Of a stretch of 64,000 nucleotides of DNA, positions 6,250 to 43,270 are shown one piece after another. The position numbers and the translations under genes were made by a program. Under the pieces are notes generated by a model that made no database searches, was not told the origin of the DNA, and saw only the letters and a list, made by a program, of their open reading frames with translations. The stretch covers positions 1 to 64,000 of the forward strand of contig JAHEDT010000002.1 in assembly GCA_024641085.1 (NCBI GenBank), read 5' to 3'. The stretch is from Geobacteraceae bacterium (GTDB lineage Bacteria > Desulfobacterota > Desulfuromonadia > Desulfuromonadales > BM103). The number at the start of each line of letters is the position of its first letter. The first letter of the stretch is position 1.

Positions 6250-6744
6250 TCAGTCCGACACAAGGTTGAAGTTCCCGGTCAGCAGTTTCTCCAGGGTATG
6301 CACGAACATGAAGACTGCCGAAACGGGAATGGACATGTAAGCCCACACCATCGAAATGGGGAGGACATCCATAGTCTGGACGATGTTCAACTTGGCCAGA
6401 ATGTACCCCTTGTAGGCAAGGAAAGCGGTAAACCAGAGCATAACCAACCAGATGACATAGAGCACAAACTTGGCCAACGGCGGCGGGAAATGACGGATGA
6501 ACACATCGACATTGAAATGTGCGAGTTTGTCGATCGCCAGGCTGGCACCGAGGAAACTCGACCAGACGAAGGAATAGGTGAGCAGCTCTTCCGACCAGGA
6601 GATTGGGGTCTGCAGGATGAAACGCGCAACGATCTGCAGCGCACCGCAGACCAGCATGCTGATGAACAAGATGATCAGCGCCCATTTTTCCAGTAAAGCG
6701 ATCCCCCGGTTTAACCTGACCCACCCCGCCACAATGGATTGCAT
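6250..6744 (-). CDS. dctQ: TRAP transporter small permease, DctQ family
   Basis: A 164-residue membrane protein with four predicted helices (about residues 22-40, 55-70, 92-112 and 133-152). This is the layout of DctQ, the small subunit that partners DctM. The SWSEELLTYSFVW segment is the typical DctQ loop with its conserved WxEE. It is the first gene of the operon. An inverted repeat at 6787-6806, just upstream, overlaps a plausible -10 box and may control all three genes. Confidence 0.9.
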   Translation of the reverse strand: MQSIVAGWVRLNRGIALLEKWALIILFISMLVCGALQIVARFILQTPISWSEELLTYSFVWSSFLGASLAIDKLAHFNVDVFIRHFPPPLAKFVLYVIWLVMLWFTAFLAYKGYILAKLNIVQTMDVLPISMVWAYMSIPVSAVFMFVHTLEKLLTGNFNLVSD

Positions 6745-6786
6745 GCCGCTACTCCCCGGTGAACTCTTATATTTTCAGTGTATTAC

Positions 6787-6806
6787 CTTTCGAAAATCGT
6801 CGAAAG
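6787..6806. promoter_or_regulatory. Operator-like dyad before the TRAP operon
   Basis: CTTTCGA and TCGAAAG form a perfect 7-bp inverted repeat with a 6-bp spacer, 43 bp upstream of the dctQ start. On the minus strand a TATACT hexamer overlaps the dyad, which suits a repressor site on the promoter. No regulator gene is adjacent. Confidence 0.45.
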
Positions 6807-6952
6807 TATAGCACAATATTTTAAACTTATTTAATTGGTGAATATTCAGAGGAAGGCCATATCTTGCTTGCCTAAAGTTGTCATGCCCGACTGTTAATCA
6901 TGCCCGCATGAAATCATTTTACGGTTCTATAGCCCATAAAAAGGTGATGCAT

Positions 6953-7072
6953 GCCACGAAGACACGAAGACTCCAAAACGCATTTTATTTCCGGTTAAGA
7001 TCAATGGATCAGCTAAAGCAATGGGGCTCCTTGCAAAATAACACTGTAATCCCTTCGTGCCTTGGTGACTTA
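6953..7072. repeat. Intergenic repeat with imperfect inverted ends
   Basis: The left end (CCACGAAGACACGAAG) and the right end (CTTCGTGCCTTGGTG) are imperfect inverted repeats about 90 bp apart. The pattern resembles the 'CACGAAG...CTTCGTG' intergenic elements I recall from deltaproteobacterial and other genomes. It is related in style to the three copies at 16670, 40036 and 50622. The rest of the 6807-7210 gap holds no supported gene. Confidence 0.5.
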
Positions 7073-7210
7073 GCGGCGAGCTTTTGGCTATATGTTCGAA
7101 GATTTAAGTGCCGGCGACCGCCCCTGGACACTTCTAAGCGGGTTCAGTTAAACCATTGGCATGACCAGGCGCCGATTGTGCGACCGGCAACGGCAGCTTG
7201 CAAGCGATGA

Positions 7211-7957
7211 TCAGCCGCGCCCGATGTAGGGCATGGTCGTGGCCATCACGGTCATGAACTGCACATTGGCCTCCAACGGCAGTTGGGCCATGTGCAGCAC
7301 CGAAGCCGCCACATGCGCGACATCCATCACCGGCTCCTCCCGGAGGCTGCCATCGGCCTGGGGCACCCCCCGGATCATCCCTTGGGCCATATCGGTGAAC
7401 GCGTTGCCTATATCGATTTGGCCGCAGGCAATATTGAAGGGCCGCCCATCCAGCGCCAGAGCCCGCGTCAACCCGGTCACCGCATGTTTCGACATCGTAT
7501 AGGGGGCCGATCCCGGCCGCGGCACGTGCGCCGAGACCGAGCCATTGTTGATAATCCGTCCGCCCTGTGGCGCCTGCCGCCGCATCAGGCCGAAGGCGGC
7601 GCGGGCGCACAGGAACATGCCGGAGATATTGACCTGCGACACGGCCAGCCAGTCCTCCACCGTTATCTCGTCAATCAGGGTGCATGGCAGGGCCATACCG
7701 GCATTATTGAACATGATGTCCAGATAGCCCCAGTCCCGTTCGATTTTGGCAAAAACCTCCGCGACGGCCTCAGGGCGGGCAACGTCACATGGCAGGACGA
7801 GCGCATGCTGGTACCCCTCCGCGGTTTCTGCAAGGGTGGCTTCGCGCCTTCCGACCAGGCCGACATGATAGCCTTCCGCCAGGAACCGCCGGGCGGTCAC
7901 ACGACCGATCCCGCTGCCAGCTCCGGTTATCAGAATGGTTTTGGCTTGCTTGCTCAT
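7211..7957 (-). CDS. Short-chain dehydrogenase/reductase
   Basis: A 248-residue classical SDR oxidoreductase. The cofactor motif GAGSGIG (about 12-18), the NNAG motif (near 89) and the catalytic YTMSK (near 152-156) are all present, with a preceding Ser in NNGSVSAHV. The acidic-residue position after strand 2 carries GRREAT, an arginine pair that suggests NADPH. The substrate is not predictable. It lies 112 bp downstream of a D-2-hydroxyacid dehydrogenase gene on the same strand, and the TRAP operon follows further downstream, so all may serve one carboxylate or hydroxyacid route. AGGAATAGAG precedes the ATG. Confidence 0.85.
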   Translation of the reverse strand: MSKQAKTILITGAGSGIGRVTARRFLAEGYHVGLVGRREATLAETAEGYQHALVLPCDVARPEAVAEVFAKIERDWGYLDIMFNNAGMALPCTLIDEITVEDWLAVSQVNISGMFLCARAAFGLMRRQAPQGGRIINNGSVSAHVPRPGSAPYTMSKHAVTGLTRALALDGRPFNIACGQIDIGNAFTDMAQGMIRGVPQADGSLREEPVMDVAHVAASVLHMAQLPLEANVQFMTVMATTMPYIGRG

Positions 7958-36607: not shown

Positions 36608-37621
36608 ATGTACAGGAAGGTATCACTATCCAGGGCGCCCTGGCTGGTCAAGCTCCTTCCCCTGTTGCTGTTCCTGGGGGCATGTGCCACCGGAGCGATC
36701 AGGGAGAAGCAGCTGACACTACCAGTTATCGACGGCGCGACTGTGGTCGGTCAGGAGACCTGCCAGGAGTGTCATGAAGGCATGGGCGCAGGCGTGCATT
36801 CACGCCTCGCCGAATTTGAATACATGGGCGGCACCCGGGGGTGCGAAGCCTGCCATGGCGGCGGCAGCCTGCATGTCGGCGCTGCCGACAATGGCCAGAT
36901 TATCAAGTTTGGCGAACTGCGCCCAGAAGAATCCGCCGCAGTCTGTGCCAAGTGCCACAGCGACGGCAAACTGATGGACTGGACGCACAGCGAACACGCC
37001 CTGAGCGACGTGGCCTGCACCGATTGCCACGCGATCCATGGCGGCGGCAAGACGGCCCTGAAGCAGCAGGACCCGAAGCTCTGCTACTCGTGTCACCAGG
37101 AGCAGATGGCCAAGGGCAACTTCCCTTCCCATCACCCGATCAAGGAAGGCAAGATGACCTGCGGCGACTGCCATAATCCCCACGGCGAACTCAATACCGA
37201 GGAACGCACCAACGACCTGTGTCTCAACTGCCACAGCCGCTACCAGGGCCCGTTCGTGTTCGGTCATGCTCCGGTCGAGGAGGACTGTACCATCTGCCAC
37301 GATCCTCACGGCTCGGTCGCCAACAACATGTTGGTGCAGAACGAGCCGTTCCTCTGCCTGCAGTGCCACGAGGGGCATTTTCACATACTGCGCAAAGGTT
37401 TCGATCCGGCAACCGGTGCCTACACGCCTGCTGGAACTGTAAGGGGCGGCATAACGATTGGTGCGTCTGCGGTTGACCCTGCAAGGGTCGATGCAGCTAA
37501 CCCGCATGGTGCGGAAGGTTGGCAAATGTCATTCGGCACCAAGTGCACGACCTGTCACGATGTCGTGCATGGCAGCGATTTTCCGTCACAGCCGCTTAAT
37601 GGTGGCGCCCTGACCCGTTAA
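36608..37621 (+). CDS. DmsE/MtrA-like decaheme c-type cytochrome lipoprotein
   Basis: A 337-residue protein with ten CxxCH heme motifs (CQECH, CEACH, CAKCH, CTDCH, CYSCH, CGDCH, CLNCH, CTICH, CLQCH, CTTCH). A lipobox LGAC places a lipidated Cys at C26. The spacing and the HxPxxEGxMxCxxCHxPHG repeats match the DmsE/MtrA decaheme family, whose members thread electrons through an outer-membrane barrel. GGAGAGAG precedes the ATG. The partner barrel gene follows after 22 bp. Lipidation is unusual compared with the soluble periplasmic MtrA. No MtrC/OmcA-like surface cytochrome or DMSO reductase gene adjoins. Confidence 0.95.
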   Translation: MYRKVSLSRAPWLVKLLPLLLFLGACATGAIREKQLTLPVIDGATVVGQETCQECHEGMGAGVHSRLAEFEYMGGTRGCEACHGGGSLHVGAADNGQIIKFGELRPEESAAVCAKCHSDGKLMDWTHSEHALSDVACTDCHAIHGGGKTALKQQDPKLCYSCHQEQMAKGNFPSHHPIKEGKMTCGDCHNPHGELNTEERTNDLCLNCHSRYQGPFVFGHAPVEEDCTICHDPHGSVANNMLVQNEPFLCLQCHEGHFHILRKGFDPATGAYTPAGTVRGGITIGASAVDPARVDAANPHGAEGWQMSFGTKCTTCHDVVHGSDFPSQPLNGGALTR

Positions 37622-37643
37622 TTGAGAAATGAGGAGGCTAGAA

Positions 37644-39953
37644 ATGAAGCGAAGCCGTTTTGGGCTGCTTGCATTGTTGTCCATCCTGTCTCTGGTGGCG
37701 ACCTCCACGATCGCTGTCGCGGAAGAGGGCTCTGCCCATCTGAGCGGCAACGTGGAGATTGGCGTCACCGGCGTGGATACGAATGACAACCCTGCACGCG
37801 TCAATGAATATGCAAAATACCGGTCCGACGATGCGGTCAATTTTGCCCCGAGCCTGAACCTGGAATACCTGAGCAAAGCATTTTCGCTCGGGGTTGAAGG
37901 TGCTGTCAGGGGGCCCCAGGACCAGGACTACGCCATGGAGGCGAACGTCAAGCGGGTCCTTAATCTTGACCTCGACTACCAGGTCTTCCAGCACTGGAAG
38001 GACCATGACAACCTCGAGGCCCTCGGGGCGACCATGTTCGGTGACGTTGGCGGGCAGCAGCCACGCGTTACGACCGACCTGACCGCCGGACAGATTGGCG
38101 TTCCGGGCGACACGCTGACCGTCGCCAACGAGCGCTATTACCAGGAGCTCGATAACGACTACATTATCGACTACAAGGAATTTACCGGAGACACCGATCT
38201 GACGATCCCTTCCCTGCCGAATGTCACTTTTCATGCCGGGTATCGTGTCGAAACCCGCAAGGGTCTCGAGCAGGCTATCACCATGAGCAAATGCAACCAG
38301 TGCCACGTTCAGGCCAACGGCAAGGATATCGACGAAAAAACCCGGGATTATACCCTCGGTGCAACCGGTAAATTCGGCATGCTGACCATTGATTACGAGT
38401 ACCTCAACCGCACATTCGATGCCGACGGATCCTTGCCGGACTACAACTACCTGTCATCCGGCCTGACCCGCGACGGAGTTGCGGATGCGGATACGATGCT
38501 ATACACCGGCGTGCAGGAGTACAGCAACACGCCTGATTCCGAAAAGGACAGCCACAGTGTCGAGGCCCGGTTGGACCTGGCGAGGGGCACCATGCTTTCG
38601 GCAGGCTACGTCCACGCTGACATCGACTCCGACAAAAATGGTGAAACCGGGGTCTACACGCTCGACCAGGACACCCTGTCCAGCAAGTTCGAGTCCTTTT
38701 TCCTCAAAGGGGCCACACGCATCGGCAACCTGCGCCTCTCCGTAACCGGCGGGACTTATGAAATCGACGGCCCTGATTACAAGGTGAACTTTCCTGACCG
38801 GGATGACATGCTGATTGCAGATGGCGGCAACAGCACCTACGAGAACCAAGACTTCCCTAATCCGGAGCATTTCGAATCAGCCGAATCCCGTGATGTGACC
38901 CGGCTAGGCATTGACGGCGTTTACCGTCTGTCCCAGGGGACCACCTTGCGGCTTGGCTACGAATACGAAGATGTCGACCGTGATCTGGAAGAACTGGGCG
39001 CGACCAAGACCAACACGTTCAAGGTGGCCCTCAAGTCCCGCTTGAACAGCAAGTTGTCCGGTCGTATCAGCTACCAGTACCAGGACATCGACGATCCGTT
39101 CCACGGCGAAGACGCCACCGGCATCGCCCAGGGCATCGGCAGCACTGACCCGGCTTACCCTGGACTGGCATGGCTCAATACGGCGGATTACGTAGGGGTT
39201 TACCCAAACCCTGACAACAGCACCGTTTACTACTGGAACAGTGTCTATCCCAACCGGACCCTGGATGCCACCAATCAGCCCGACAGGGTCCACGAAGGTA
39301 AATTTACCTCAACCTGGGCACCGGCCAGCAACGTCGCCATGACAGTTTTTGCCCGGGTCCGCATCGAAGAGAACGATGACGTCGACTACAAGCAGAACAG
39401 CTACGTTCCCGGCGCATCTCTCTACTATGCTCCGAGCAACAACCTCATCCTGACCATGGCGTACACTTTCAACAAGATGCAAACGGAGAACCAGATGTGT
39501 GTCGGCTGGTACCATGGCTGAGCGAACGGCGTCTCATCGACCCAGTTTGGGTCGTACTGTGATAAAGCAGAATATGACTCCAATGTTCACACTCTCTCCT
39601 TGGCCGTGGATTATCAGGCAACTGAGAAACTCAAGTTGAATGCCAGTTTTACATACAACGATGCCGAAGACAGCTGGGATTGGGATTTTGCCGATCGTCC
39701 GTCGCTGGTCTACAGCGGGGGCGAAAAGCCTCACTACGATACCGTGGCGCAGAACAACTCGATCGACGATTACTCTGATTTGTCCTATCAGCAGTATGAA
39801 CTGACCGTCGGCGGCACCTATAACTTCACCGAGAGCCTTTATACCTCGGCCAGCGTCACCTACAGCGATTTCAACTCCGATGAAATGTATGTCTACGGAG
39901 ACGAGGACGGCTCCGCATACTACGGCTACCTCGGTGTTGGCTACCGCTTCTAA
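37644..39953 (+). CDS. MtrB/PioB-type outer-membrane barrel with heme motif and in-frame TGA (candidate selenoprotein)
   Basis: Read through one TGA (39519-39521), this is a 769-residue porin. A signal peptide ends near AVA-EE (27), about 28 amphipathic strands follow, and the chain ends in GVGYRF, the Phe-terminal signature for barrel assembly. It belongs to the decaheme-associated MtrB/PioB family, which sheathes the cytochrome. A CxxCH motif at C217-H221 could bind its own heme c. The TGA would be residue 626, flanked by C619 and C639. If it is a stop, the product ends at 625 residues without its last strands. The frame continues unchanged for 143 codons with normal barrel pattern. A hairpin at 39538-39554 fits a SECIS. 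A nonsense mutation or sequencing error is the alternative. Confidence 0.8.
39538..39554 (+). promoter_or_regulatory. Candidate bacterial SECIS hairpin
   Basis: CGACCCA and TGGGTCG form a perfect 7-bp stem with a GTT loop. The stem starts 17 nt, and the loop 24 nt, after the in-frame TGA. Bacterial SECIS elements lie in the coding sequence just after the UGA and carry a G at the start of a short apical loop, as here. The flanking bases do not extend the stem. A 7-bp hairpin can occur by chance, so this supports but does not prove Sec insertion. Confidence 0.45.
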
Positions 39954-39984: not shown

Positions 39985-40018
39985 GCGCCCGGCTGGACAT
40001 CCCGCCGGGCGCTTTTTT
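39985..40018 (+). terminator. Terminator of the decaheme-porin operon
   Basis: GCGCCCGGC pairs with GCCGGGCGC (9 bp) and is followed by six T residues. It lies 32 bp after the TAA at 39953 rather than after the internal TGA. This fits 39953 being the operon's true end. Confidence 0.85.
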
Positions 40019-40340: not shown

Positions 40341-41516
40341 TTAACCTGGCGCAGGACCGGAGATAATCCTCATATAGCTCTCCCGGCACAAGGTCTCGAT
40401 CTTGGAAAGGTTGGCAAATGCGTCACGGAAATCCTTTGTGCCGACCGTAAAGACCCCGTGTCCATAGACGATCGCCCCCCGGCGCCCCAGCACTGCCGGA
40501 GGGAGTGTGCTGCTGAGCCCTCTGGGCCCGGTACCCACTTCACCGGGGATCACCGGGATATCCTCGACATAGCGCTCCCGATCGCACTTGATGTGGCATT
40601 TCCCCCGGTTCTCGCAGGCTGGCTCAAAACACAGCATCGACATGATCACGCTGAACTTTGGATGACCGTGGAGGATCGCCCGGTTGCCTCCTTCCAGGTA
40701 GATATCCCGGTGCGCCACCAGTTCGCTGGAAGCGGTGATCCCGGTGCTGGCCGAGTTGTCAAGCGGGCAGGCGTCGATGCAGCCGGCCAATTCATCCAGC
40801 GACGACCCCGTCTGGCTGATATACACGGTATCCCCGGCAAAATATGAAATATTGCCGAAGAACGAATCGACCATGCGCGCATCGACCGTCGCCTGGCCGG
40901 CATGGGCCATTGCCCTGAAAATAGCGTCCTCTTCGCTAAAAACCCCCCGCTCAAGATCGACGCGCGCCGCTGCCGGGAGAAACGTATCGTAAGCTGCGAG
41001 GACCTCCGGCAGCATCGCGGCCACGACCAAATCAGGGGTGCCGGCATACTGTGAATAGGCGTAATCGACAAAGAACTTGACGAATGCAGAGAAGATGATC
41101 GAGCTGAAGACCACGAAGGCCTGCTCCGGGCTGACCGTGCCGAAAGCGACCACGCCATGGCCCTCGACCACACAGCCTTTGCGCTTTTGCAGCAGGGGAA
41201 CGATCTCAGCGGCCGTCATTGAACGCGCCACGGGGATGGAGTGAAGAAAGGTACGGGTCTCGGTGTCTTCGGGGACGAATTCGGCACCGCTGCGGTGACA
41301 GTGCTCATTCAGGATGCTGAAGAAGGGCTCCGCCGGGCGGGCGCAGACGATACTGTTGATGTTCAGAGCCGCGATGATTTTTTCCAGTTCTGCCGCCCGT
41401 GGGTCCGGGCGGTTCCAGATCACGGCATCATTCACCCCGCCGACCAGCGGCTCGCCGGGGGAGCACAGGCCGTGTGCTACCAGCTTCTCTGCGTACTTAT
41501 TCAGTAATTTCAGCAT
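40341..41516 (-). CDS. Class II aldolase/adducin-family protein, probable tandem domain
   Basis: A 391-residue protein. The C-terminal half is a class II aldolase (AraD/FucA) domain with zinc-ligand His motifs HGHPKF (near 287) and YGHGVF (near 355). The N-terminal half shows a second GHG segment (EGHGVVAFG near 117) followed by the same helix pattern, so it looks like a degenerate first copy. A Cys cluster (C-x5-C-x3-C-x3-C in FEPACENRGKCHIKCD) sits in the C-terminal domain and is unusual. The start at 41516 overlaps the AOR stop by seven bases; MSGIGLA at 41537 is an alternative. It may make or cleave an aldehyde used by AOR. Confidence 0.8.
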   Translation of the reverse strand: MLKLLNKYAEKLVAHGLCSPGEPLVGGVNDAVIWNRPDPRAAELEKIIAALNINSIVCARPAEPFFSILNEHCHRSGAEFVPEDTETRTFLHSIPVARSMTAAEIVPLLQKRKGCVVEGHGVVAFGTVSPEQAFVVFSSIIFSAFVKFFVDYAYSQYAGTPDLVVAAMLPEVLAAYDTFLPAAARVDLERGVFSEEDAIFRAMAHAGQATVDARMVDSFFGNISYFAGDTVYISQTGSSLDELAGCIDACPLDNSASTGITASSELVAHRDIYLEGGNRAILHGHPKFSVIMSMLCFEPACENRGKCHIKCDRERYVEDIPVIPGEVGTGPRGLSSTLPPAVLGRRGAIVYGHGVFTVGTKDFRDAFANLSKIETLCRESYMRIISGPAPG

Positions 41517-43270
41517 GGCAAGGCCAATTCCTGACATTTTTCCGGCGTCGGCAGCCCCTGGGCATCAAGCCCGCGAATCCGATAATACGCCGCCCGTTCC
41601 TGGAGGAATGCTTCCCTGTCGATCGGGGCGATCTGGATGGATTCGCTGCTGCTGCCGCTTTCCTGGAAAAACCGGACGGGAATGTCGTCGTCTTCGGCGG
41701 TGAAGCCGTTCCGGGCGTTCATGATGCGTTCACGGTAGTAGATTCGCTCGCCGGTCTTGAGCAGCGCCTGTGCCGACGTGCGCATGCCGGTGACCCCTTG
41801 CAGAGCCCGGGCGTATTCCTCGAGAGAGGCCGCAAAGAACAGGAATTTGCAGGCCGTCAACGAATCGACCACGGCGTTCATATCTTCGCTGATCTTGATG
41901 ATCCGCGCTTTGCCGCTCAGTGAAAAGCGGTCTGTCGCCACAGGCTTGCGCAATATCTCGTGGGCGACAGGATAGGCCCGCAGATGGCAGCCGCCACGGG
42001 TGGACGTGGCGTATGCCAGCGCCATGCCGTAGGCGCCCCGGGGGTCGTAGGCGGGAAACTCCAGGCCCTTTGAGACCATGGCGACTTCCGGACGCCCCGC
42101 TTCACAGGCATAGCGCAGGGCGCCCTGGCCGAGCAGAGCAGCGTCGCCCCGGCCGGAGGCAATATTCTCGAGCATCGTCAAGATGGCTGCCGGGGTCATC
42201 TGCCGACCGGTTATTTCCGCATGGGTCGCCAGGGCGACGCCGGCGGAGATGGTATCCATGCCCGCCTCGTTGCATAACCGATTGGCCGCGACGACCGCAT
42301 CCAGGTCGGTGTTGCCCACCAGGGCGCTGAAGTGGGACATGGTCTCGAATTCCGGGATGATGTCCCCCTGCGCGCCGACCTTCTTGCACAGGATGTGACA
42401 TCCTGCACAGCCGAACTTCTTGGTAGCGTAGCGTTTCTTATAGGCATACGCGTTCATCGACGGAGCAGACTCAAAGTAGGTTTCCCGGAAGTTATTGGTC
42501 GGCATCATCCGGCGGCTGCGCATCAGGTCATAGAGGGCGCCGGTCCCGTAATTGGCAAGGCCCAAATCACCAGTGAGCACAGGGGATGCGGCGACCAGCC
42601 GGTAAATCTCCTCCTGGGCCGCCTTGAGCTCATCGCGGTCAAACACATCGGTTTTGAGGCTGCCGCTGACCGAGAGAAATTTCAGTTTTTTCTCTGCCAT
42701 CACCAGGCCGAGTCCGCCACGTCCCGCAAAATAATGCCCGTCGAACACGATTGCCGCATAGCGCACGCCGTTCTCCGCGGCCGGGCCCACCATGGCATGC
42801 GCGCCTTTTTGCAGGCCCGGAGCCGCCAGGAGCCGGCCATGGATGTCAGAGACGGCCAGCCCGGTTAGATGGGCCGCGTCCTGGAAAGCGACCCCGTTTT
42901 CGGTGATGACCAAACCACACCATTGCTCACTCCTGCCCGTCACCAGGACCCCGTCGTAGCCGGCTCGCTTGAGGACCGTCCCCAACCGTCCTCCGACAGA
43001 TGCGTCGCAAACGGCACCGGTCAGAGGTGAGCGGGACATGACTGTCATGCGGCCCGAGGTCGGCGATGACGTGTTGTTGAGCGGTCCGGTCATGAACGCC
43101 AGGGGCATGCGCGGGTCGTTCCATGCATGACAGAAATGCTCAAACAGCAGAGCGCCGCACAACCCCTTGCCACCGATTTCACGCTGGTAAACATTGACCG
43201 GCAGGTTGAGTTCTGCGGTTGTCTGTTCGGTCAGGTTGACCGTCAGTATTTTTCCGGTCCAGCCGTGCAC
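41510..43270 (-). CDS. Aldehyde:ferredoxin oxidoreductase (tungsten, AOR family)
   Basis: A 586-residue AOR-family protein that oxidises aldehydes to acids with reduction of ferredoxin, using a bis-pterin tungsten cofactor. The N-terminal domain has GWTGKILTVNLT and the GGKGLCGALL block. GRGGLGLVMAEKK near 183 and the [4Fe-4S] ligands C288-x2-C291-x3-C295 are visible, with a fourth Cys in SLTACKFLFF near 490. Length is usual (about 600). The aldolase gene overlaps its 3' end, so the two are coupled; an aldehyde from the aldolase could be the AOR substrate. No moaD or tungstate transport genes adjoin. Confidence 0.94.
   Translation of the reverse strand: MHGWTGKILTVNLTEQTTAELNLPVNVYQREIGGKGLCGALLFEHFCHAWNDPRMPLAFMTGPLNNTSSPTSGRMTVMSRSPLTGAVCDASVGGRLGTVLKRAGYDGVLVTGRSEQWCGLVITENGVAFQDAAHLTGLAVSDIHGRLLAAPGLQKGAHAMVGPAAENGVRYAAIVFDGHYFAGRGGLGLVMAEKKLKFLSVSGSLKTDVFDRDELKAAQEEIYRLVAASPVLTGDLGLANYGTGALYDLMRSRRMMPTNNFRETYFESAPSMNAYAYKKRYATKKFGCAGCHILCKKVGAQGDIIPEFETMSHFSALVGNTDLDAVVAANRLCNEAGMDTISAGVALATHAEITGRQMTPAAILTMLENIASGRGDAALLGQGALRYACEAGRPEVAMVSKGLEFPAYDPRGAYGMALAYATSTRGGCHLRAYPVAHEILRKPVATDRFSLSGKARIIKISEDMNAVVDSLTACKFLFFAASLEEYARALQGVTGMRTSAQALLKTGERIYYRERIMNARNGFTAEDDDIPVRFFQESGSSSESIQIAPIDREAFLQERAAYYRIRGLDAQGLPTPEKCQELALPC

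Follow-up and report, generated by a model that had tools for sequence, protein, structure and literature searches.

The omcL gene of this Geobacteraceae bacterium, located on the forward strand of the 64,000-nucleotide window (the whole stretch of DNA analyzed here), almost certainly encodes a selenoprotein. The in-frame TGA at 39519-39521, residue 626 of an MtrB/PioB-type outer-membrane barrel, is predicted to be read as selenocysteine (Sec), because all the readable relatives found share this TGA and a hairpin that matches. The gene adds a well-supported member to a family for which selenoproteins are already on record, and any chemistry of its Sec is putative. The features of the locus are the following:

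36608-37621, + strand: omcK, a decahaem lipoprotein cytochrome of the NF041028 GSU2203 / DmsE (MtrA-like) family, assigned from profile scores, translation and haem count
37644-39953, + strand: omcL, an MtrB/PioB-type outer-membrane barrel selenoprotein of 769 residues with Sec626, assigned from PF11854, NF041027, the structural model and its match to 6r2q_B
37992-37994, + strand: His117, invariant in 68 homologues
38292-38306, + strand: CNQCH (C217-H221), an invariant c-type haem motif on a barrel hairpin and a predicted haem site, from the alignment of 68 homologues
39498-39500, + strand: Cys619, seven residues N-terminal of Sec
39519-39521, + strand: TGA, the predicted Sec codon, residue 626
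39538-39554, + strand: predicted SECIS apical hairpin of 7 bp with a GUU loop, from the synonymous-recoding test and covariation
39558-39560, + strand: Cys639, found in the Desulfuromonadales group and not universal
39985-40018, + strand: terminator-like hairpin followed by T6, 3' of the full-length stop, by direct reading

The omcL frame opens at ATG 37644, preceded by GAGGAGG at 37631-37637, meets a single TGA and stays open beyond it, with no change of frame, for another 143 codons, ending at F769 and a TAA at 39951-39953. The initial annotation had described this frame with its Phe-terminal end at 39953, and had placed C619 and C639 on either side of residue 626; our reading of the frame and its translation agrees on both counts. 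It had also located the terminator after 39953 and not after the TGA, and the hairpin found past the TAA has a GC-rich stem of 9 bp and a loop of 10 nt, the length of which explains why it is missing from the output of the terminator scan. Further downstream, the opposite strand carries an aldehyde ferredoxin oxidoreductase gene (41510-43270) and then a gene for an Aldolase_II-domain protein (40341-41537).

Profile comparisons place the omcL product within NCBIfam NF041027, the "GSU2204 family CXXCH-containing (seleno)protein", with 609.3 bits against a cut-off of 350; this profile stops at residue 625, directly before Sec. The product also scores 54.3 bits against PF11854 (MtrB/PioB; gathering cut-off 23), and it falls below the cut-off of TIGR03509, the MtrB/PioB decahaem-associated subfamily (32.8 versus 240 bits). 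The AlphaFold2 model of the protein (pLDDT 85.1, pTM 0.80) predicts an MtrB-like barrel of approximately 26 long strands, the top PDB match of which is the MtrB chain of the Mtr complex (6r2q_B, E 1.1e-25). The predicted fold and the pairing with an MtrA-like decahaem cytochrome are shared with MtrB of the Shewanella MtrCAB conduit, to which the omcL product is 13% identical and from which it is set apart by its invariant CXXCH and its Sec-bearing hairpin. It differs in nothing essential from the NF041027 GSU2204 family, the OmcL of PMC10553843. Homologs were also sought in viral contigs, and none were found among those checked.

The suggestion of the initial annotation that a selenoprotein in this family could be new is not sustained by these comparisons, since NF041027 already models a (seleno)protein and two reviews include these MtrB/PioB barrels among predicted selenoproteins (PMC9312934, and PMC13188914 under the name GSU2204/NF041027). 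The source cited there is a 2008 marine survey (PMC2398784), in the main text of which MtrB, PioB and GSU do not appear. Another predicted Sec protein tied to Geobacter outer-membrane electron transfer is ExtKL (GSU2937-GSU2936; PMC1914089, PMC5877670), but this is a candidate multihaem cytochrome selenoprotein of a separate family (NF040886), whereas omcL encodes a barrel.

Searches with the barrel returned matches in 32 genomes among 58 relatives, with some two dozen of these genes presenting one in-frame TGA, in 61 of 395 genomes of the phylum, and in 59 named loci on GTDB contigs, ranging from the Desulfuromonadales to Thermodesulfatator, Thermosulfurimonas and some Acidobacteria bins. The Sec column is TGA in all 109 cleanly readable homologous loci, down to 22-30% protein identity, a set in which many loci are one gene taken from both of two collections and which comprises 84 distinct nucleotide contexts. 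The Sec motif reads G-U-(A/G) in each of the 77 distinct 21-residue contexts, and the positions invariant across 68 aligned proteins are M1, H117, G207, C217, C220, H221, T233, R538, Y607, G625 and U626.

Three distant paralogs (L136, L138 and L139) have instead TGC, encoding Cys, at the Sec column. These paralogs resemble omcL in their fold family and in their CXXCH, but they carry the motif G-C-F-S-E-S, for which a SECIS element is not needed. The profile behind their alignment had C written for Sec and could favor a Cys match; the absence of gaps in the columns around the site, however, argues against an alignment artefact. The initial annotation had held that Cys or TGA at the column of residue 626 in homologs would support Sec, and these are the two codons that the readable loci and the Cys paralogs present. 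A further relative, L137, has the CXXCH with neither Sec nor Cys at this column. The single exception to TGA at the column, L093, was discarded as a non-Sec homolog, because its contig is broken in frame at many places and has 3 nt inserted at the Sec site. The Cys-type paralog L139 (G103, contig C87) contains an additional TGA approximately 87 residues before its Cys site, which was rejected as a second Sec site, as it sits on the conserved Arg column corresponding to R538, and which is likely a mutation or an error.

The hairpin that the initial annotation had reported 17 nt past the TGA is present as CGACCCA-GTT-TGGGTCG, its first base lying at that distance. It agrees with the bSECIS model (PMC13188914), which calls for a G at loop position 1 or 2, a loop 16-37 nt from the UGA and a stem of 4-16 bp. 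In homologs a hairpin likewise lies shortly 3' of the TGA, with GUU, GGU, GUA or GUC at its apex in most genes, and its offset relative to the codons shifts by one base in the L108 group and by three in the L032 group. Compared to 300 synonymous recodings per gene, the natural hairpin ranks in the top 5% in 68 of 84 genes (mean 17.6 versus 9.8). All seven pairs vary on both sides, with 88.7% of cells pairing across 38 distinct 17-mers, and the covariation score (0.546) is reached in none of 500 shuffles (0.126) and falls to approximately 0.14 when the partner is slid by one column; the loop served to choose these 17-mers and to set their register, in some cases at shifted positions, a procedure that leans towards structure. 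The synonymous-recoding test is independent of this loop-based choice. The signal is weaker when minimum energies are simply compared with those of codon-order shuffles (26 of 84 genes at p<=0.05).

Among the Sec genes to which the initial annotation had pointed, selA, selB and selD are all present above cut-off in the genome (G000), together on contig C146, and selC was not found. The selD gene (6537-7457 of that contig; L145) also contains a TGA in frame, at SGUAAK, and SelD is thus probably a selenoprotein too. Searches for selC in this draft with Rfam, with three anticodon-based patterns, by BLAST with the gene of a relative and through its YedF-like neighbor were negative, and the second genome of this genus, G001, likewise yielded no selC. 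The initial annotation had named the absence of selC among its refuters, and these negative searches count against the Sec reading. The YedF-like gene, which adjoins selC in several relatives, was not detected in either genome in a search that had no positive control. selC itself was identified in all of the other 11 relatives scanned (68-79 bits), and ARAGORN agrees for the three tested; a gap common to the two drafts would be the likely reason for its absence from them. A match to the Rfam tRNA-Sec model RF01852 on contig C129 (14912-14988; L009) was rejected as selC, as ARAGORN identifies it as tRNA-Trp; it scores 47.9 bits against a cut-off of 47, and similar matches occur in relatives. 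The RF01852 score alone is therefore not proof of selC.

The missing selC would fit a reading in which translation really stops at the TGA, or in which the TGA arose by sequencing error or by mutation in a pseudogene, so that the barrel is truncated or broken. We reject this reading, which we consider highly improbable, on the conservation of the TGA in all readable loci, the conservation of the protein beyond it and the covarying hairpin. Moreover, the stray TGA of L139 illustrates what mutation or error is expected to produce, as it hits a column that is Arg in L136. TGA conservation, the Sec/Cys pairs, SECIS covariation and the presence of selA, selB and selD strongly favor the original proposal of a Sec codon in an MtrB/PioB-type barrel.

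The residues surrounding Sec626 bear on what it might do. The initial annotation had placed residue 626 in a loop with C619 and C639, as a sensible site for a redox selenium. One possible role of Sec is that of a thiol-type group forming a selenenylsulfide with C619 (or C639), which would lock the outer loops structurally or switch them by redox state and would lie outside the electron path. In favor of this role, 65 of the 77 distinct contexts have Cys at position -7 (Ser, Tyr or Ala in the remainder), and C639 occurs in the Desulfuromonadales group. Nevertheless, C639 is often absent among homologs, only G625 and Sec626 are invariant around the site, a sub-clade of the L108-L117 type retains Sec with Cys at neither position, and the Cys paralogs have Ala or Ser at -7. 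The selenenylsulfide is therefore rejected as a family-wide mechanism, both cysteines being missing in sub-clades, and the partnership does not hold as a rule of the family; as an account of Sec in general, we regard a thiol-type role as unlikely.

Two features escaped the initial annotation: the CXXCH of the barrel (C217-H221), which is invariant, and the upstream gene for a 10-haem cytochrome. If both termini are assumed to be periplasmic, the order of strands and the lengths of loops in the model (DSSP string) suggest that H117 and the hairpins with CXXCH and Sec share the long-loop, normally outer side of the barrel. Sec could serve as a ligand of the barrel's own haem, or of a metal ion at the barrel mouth, an idea consistent with the invariance of both Sec and CXXCH and with their location on the same predicted side. 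Yet the CXXCH occurs with neither Sec nor Cys in L043, L046 and L137, so the haem and Sec need not act together, and we hold ligation to be slightly less probable still than a thiol-type role. As C619 is not required and CXXCH persists in relatives devoid of Sec, neither selenenylsulfide formation nor haem ligation would apply family-wide. The case for H117 as a family-specific haem ligand is also weakened, since MtrB-type porins without CXXCH (L140, L141) have this residue too.

The omcK product has ten CXXCH motifs and an LGAC lipobox, and scores 446 bits against NF041028 and 216 bits against TIGR03508. In all 31 loci checked, a gene with ten CXXCH lies upstream of the barrel gene, separated from it by 11-73 nt. 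No MtrC-type extracellular cytochrome gene is fixed beside the barrel in these loci, where other multihaem genes occur occasionally; the MtrCAB conduit, in contrast, has an MtrC-type partner, whereas the omcL loci fix only the 10-haem gene.

We propose a mechanism in which SelB and Sec-tRNA would decode UGA 39519 as Sec via the hairpin at 39538-39554, yielding an MtrB-like outer-membrane barrel beside the MtrA/DmsE-like lipoprotein cytochrome OmcK. OmcK would bring electrons into or through the OmcL barrel, which may bear one extra, eleventh c-type haem attached at the CXXCH of an outward hairpin. Sec626 would top a second outward hairpin and provide, where the conduit opens to the outside, a redox group of low potential that may hand electrons to an external acceptor, either as a redox relay or as the reactive center of a reductase at the surface. 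The codon, the SECIS hairpin, the CXXCH and the gene pair are all read from sequence, the barrel fold is predicted, and the outward side, the haem attachment, the electron path and the role of Sec are deduced from these; we give the scheme as a whole, an OmcK-OmcL conduit with haem and Sec at its outer side, an even chance of being correct. OmcK is regarded as extracellular in PMC10553843, in which case the electron path would change. More speculatively, and in our estimation improbably, the haem and Sec on outward hairpins might replace a separate MtrC-type surface cytochrome, the barrel itself being the terminal reductase or contact and Cys being inadequate. Under such a built-in selenium outlet, Sec would be retained almost without exception because Cys fails at the needed potential.

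In Geobacter, hematite induces GSU2203 (OmcK) and GSU2204 by 2.4-2.7-fold, and magnetite by 1.5-1.7-fold (PMC4070692). An OmcK-OmcL conduit has been proposed in sulfate reducers partnering methane-oxidizing archaea, in a report where selenocysteine goes unmentioned (PMC10553843); on the basis of shared expression data, we infer that the OmcL of that report corresponds to GSU2204. In the literature searched, which did not extend to two selenoprotein papers by Haft and colleagues, we found no paper joining the selenoprotein lists to OmcK-OmcL.

The identification of Sec626 connects these lists, where the GSU2204 / MtrB-PioB barrel appears without a function, with the OmcK-OmcL electron-transfer papers, including the expression of this conduit in a sulfate reducer living with methane-oxidizing archaea (PMC10553843). 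If Sec is needed, a host unable to read the SECIS element would make a truncated barrel, and selenium supply would limit the OmcK-OmcL route of extracellular electron transfer.
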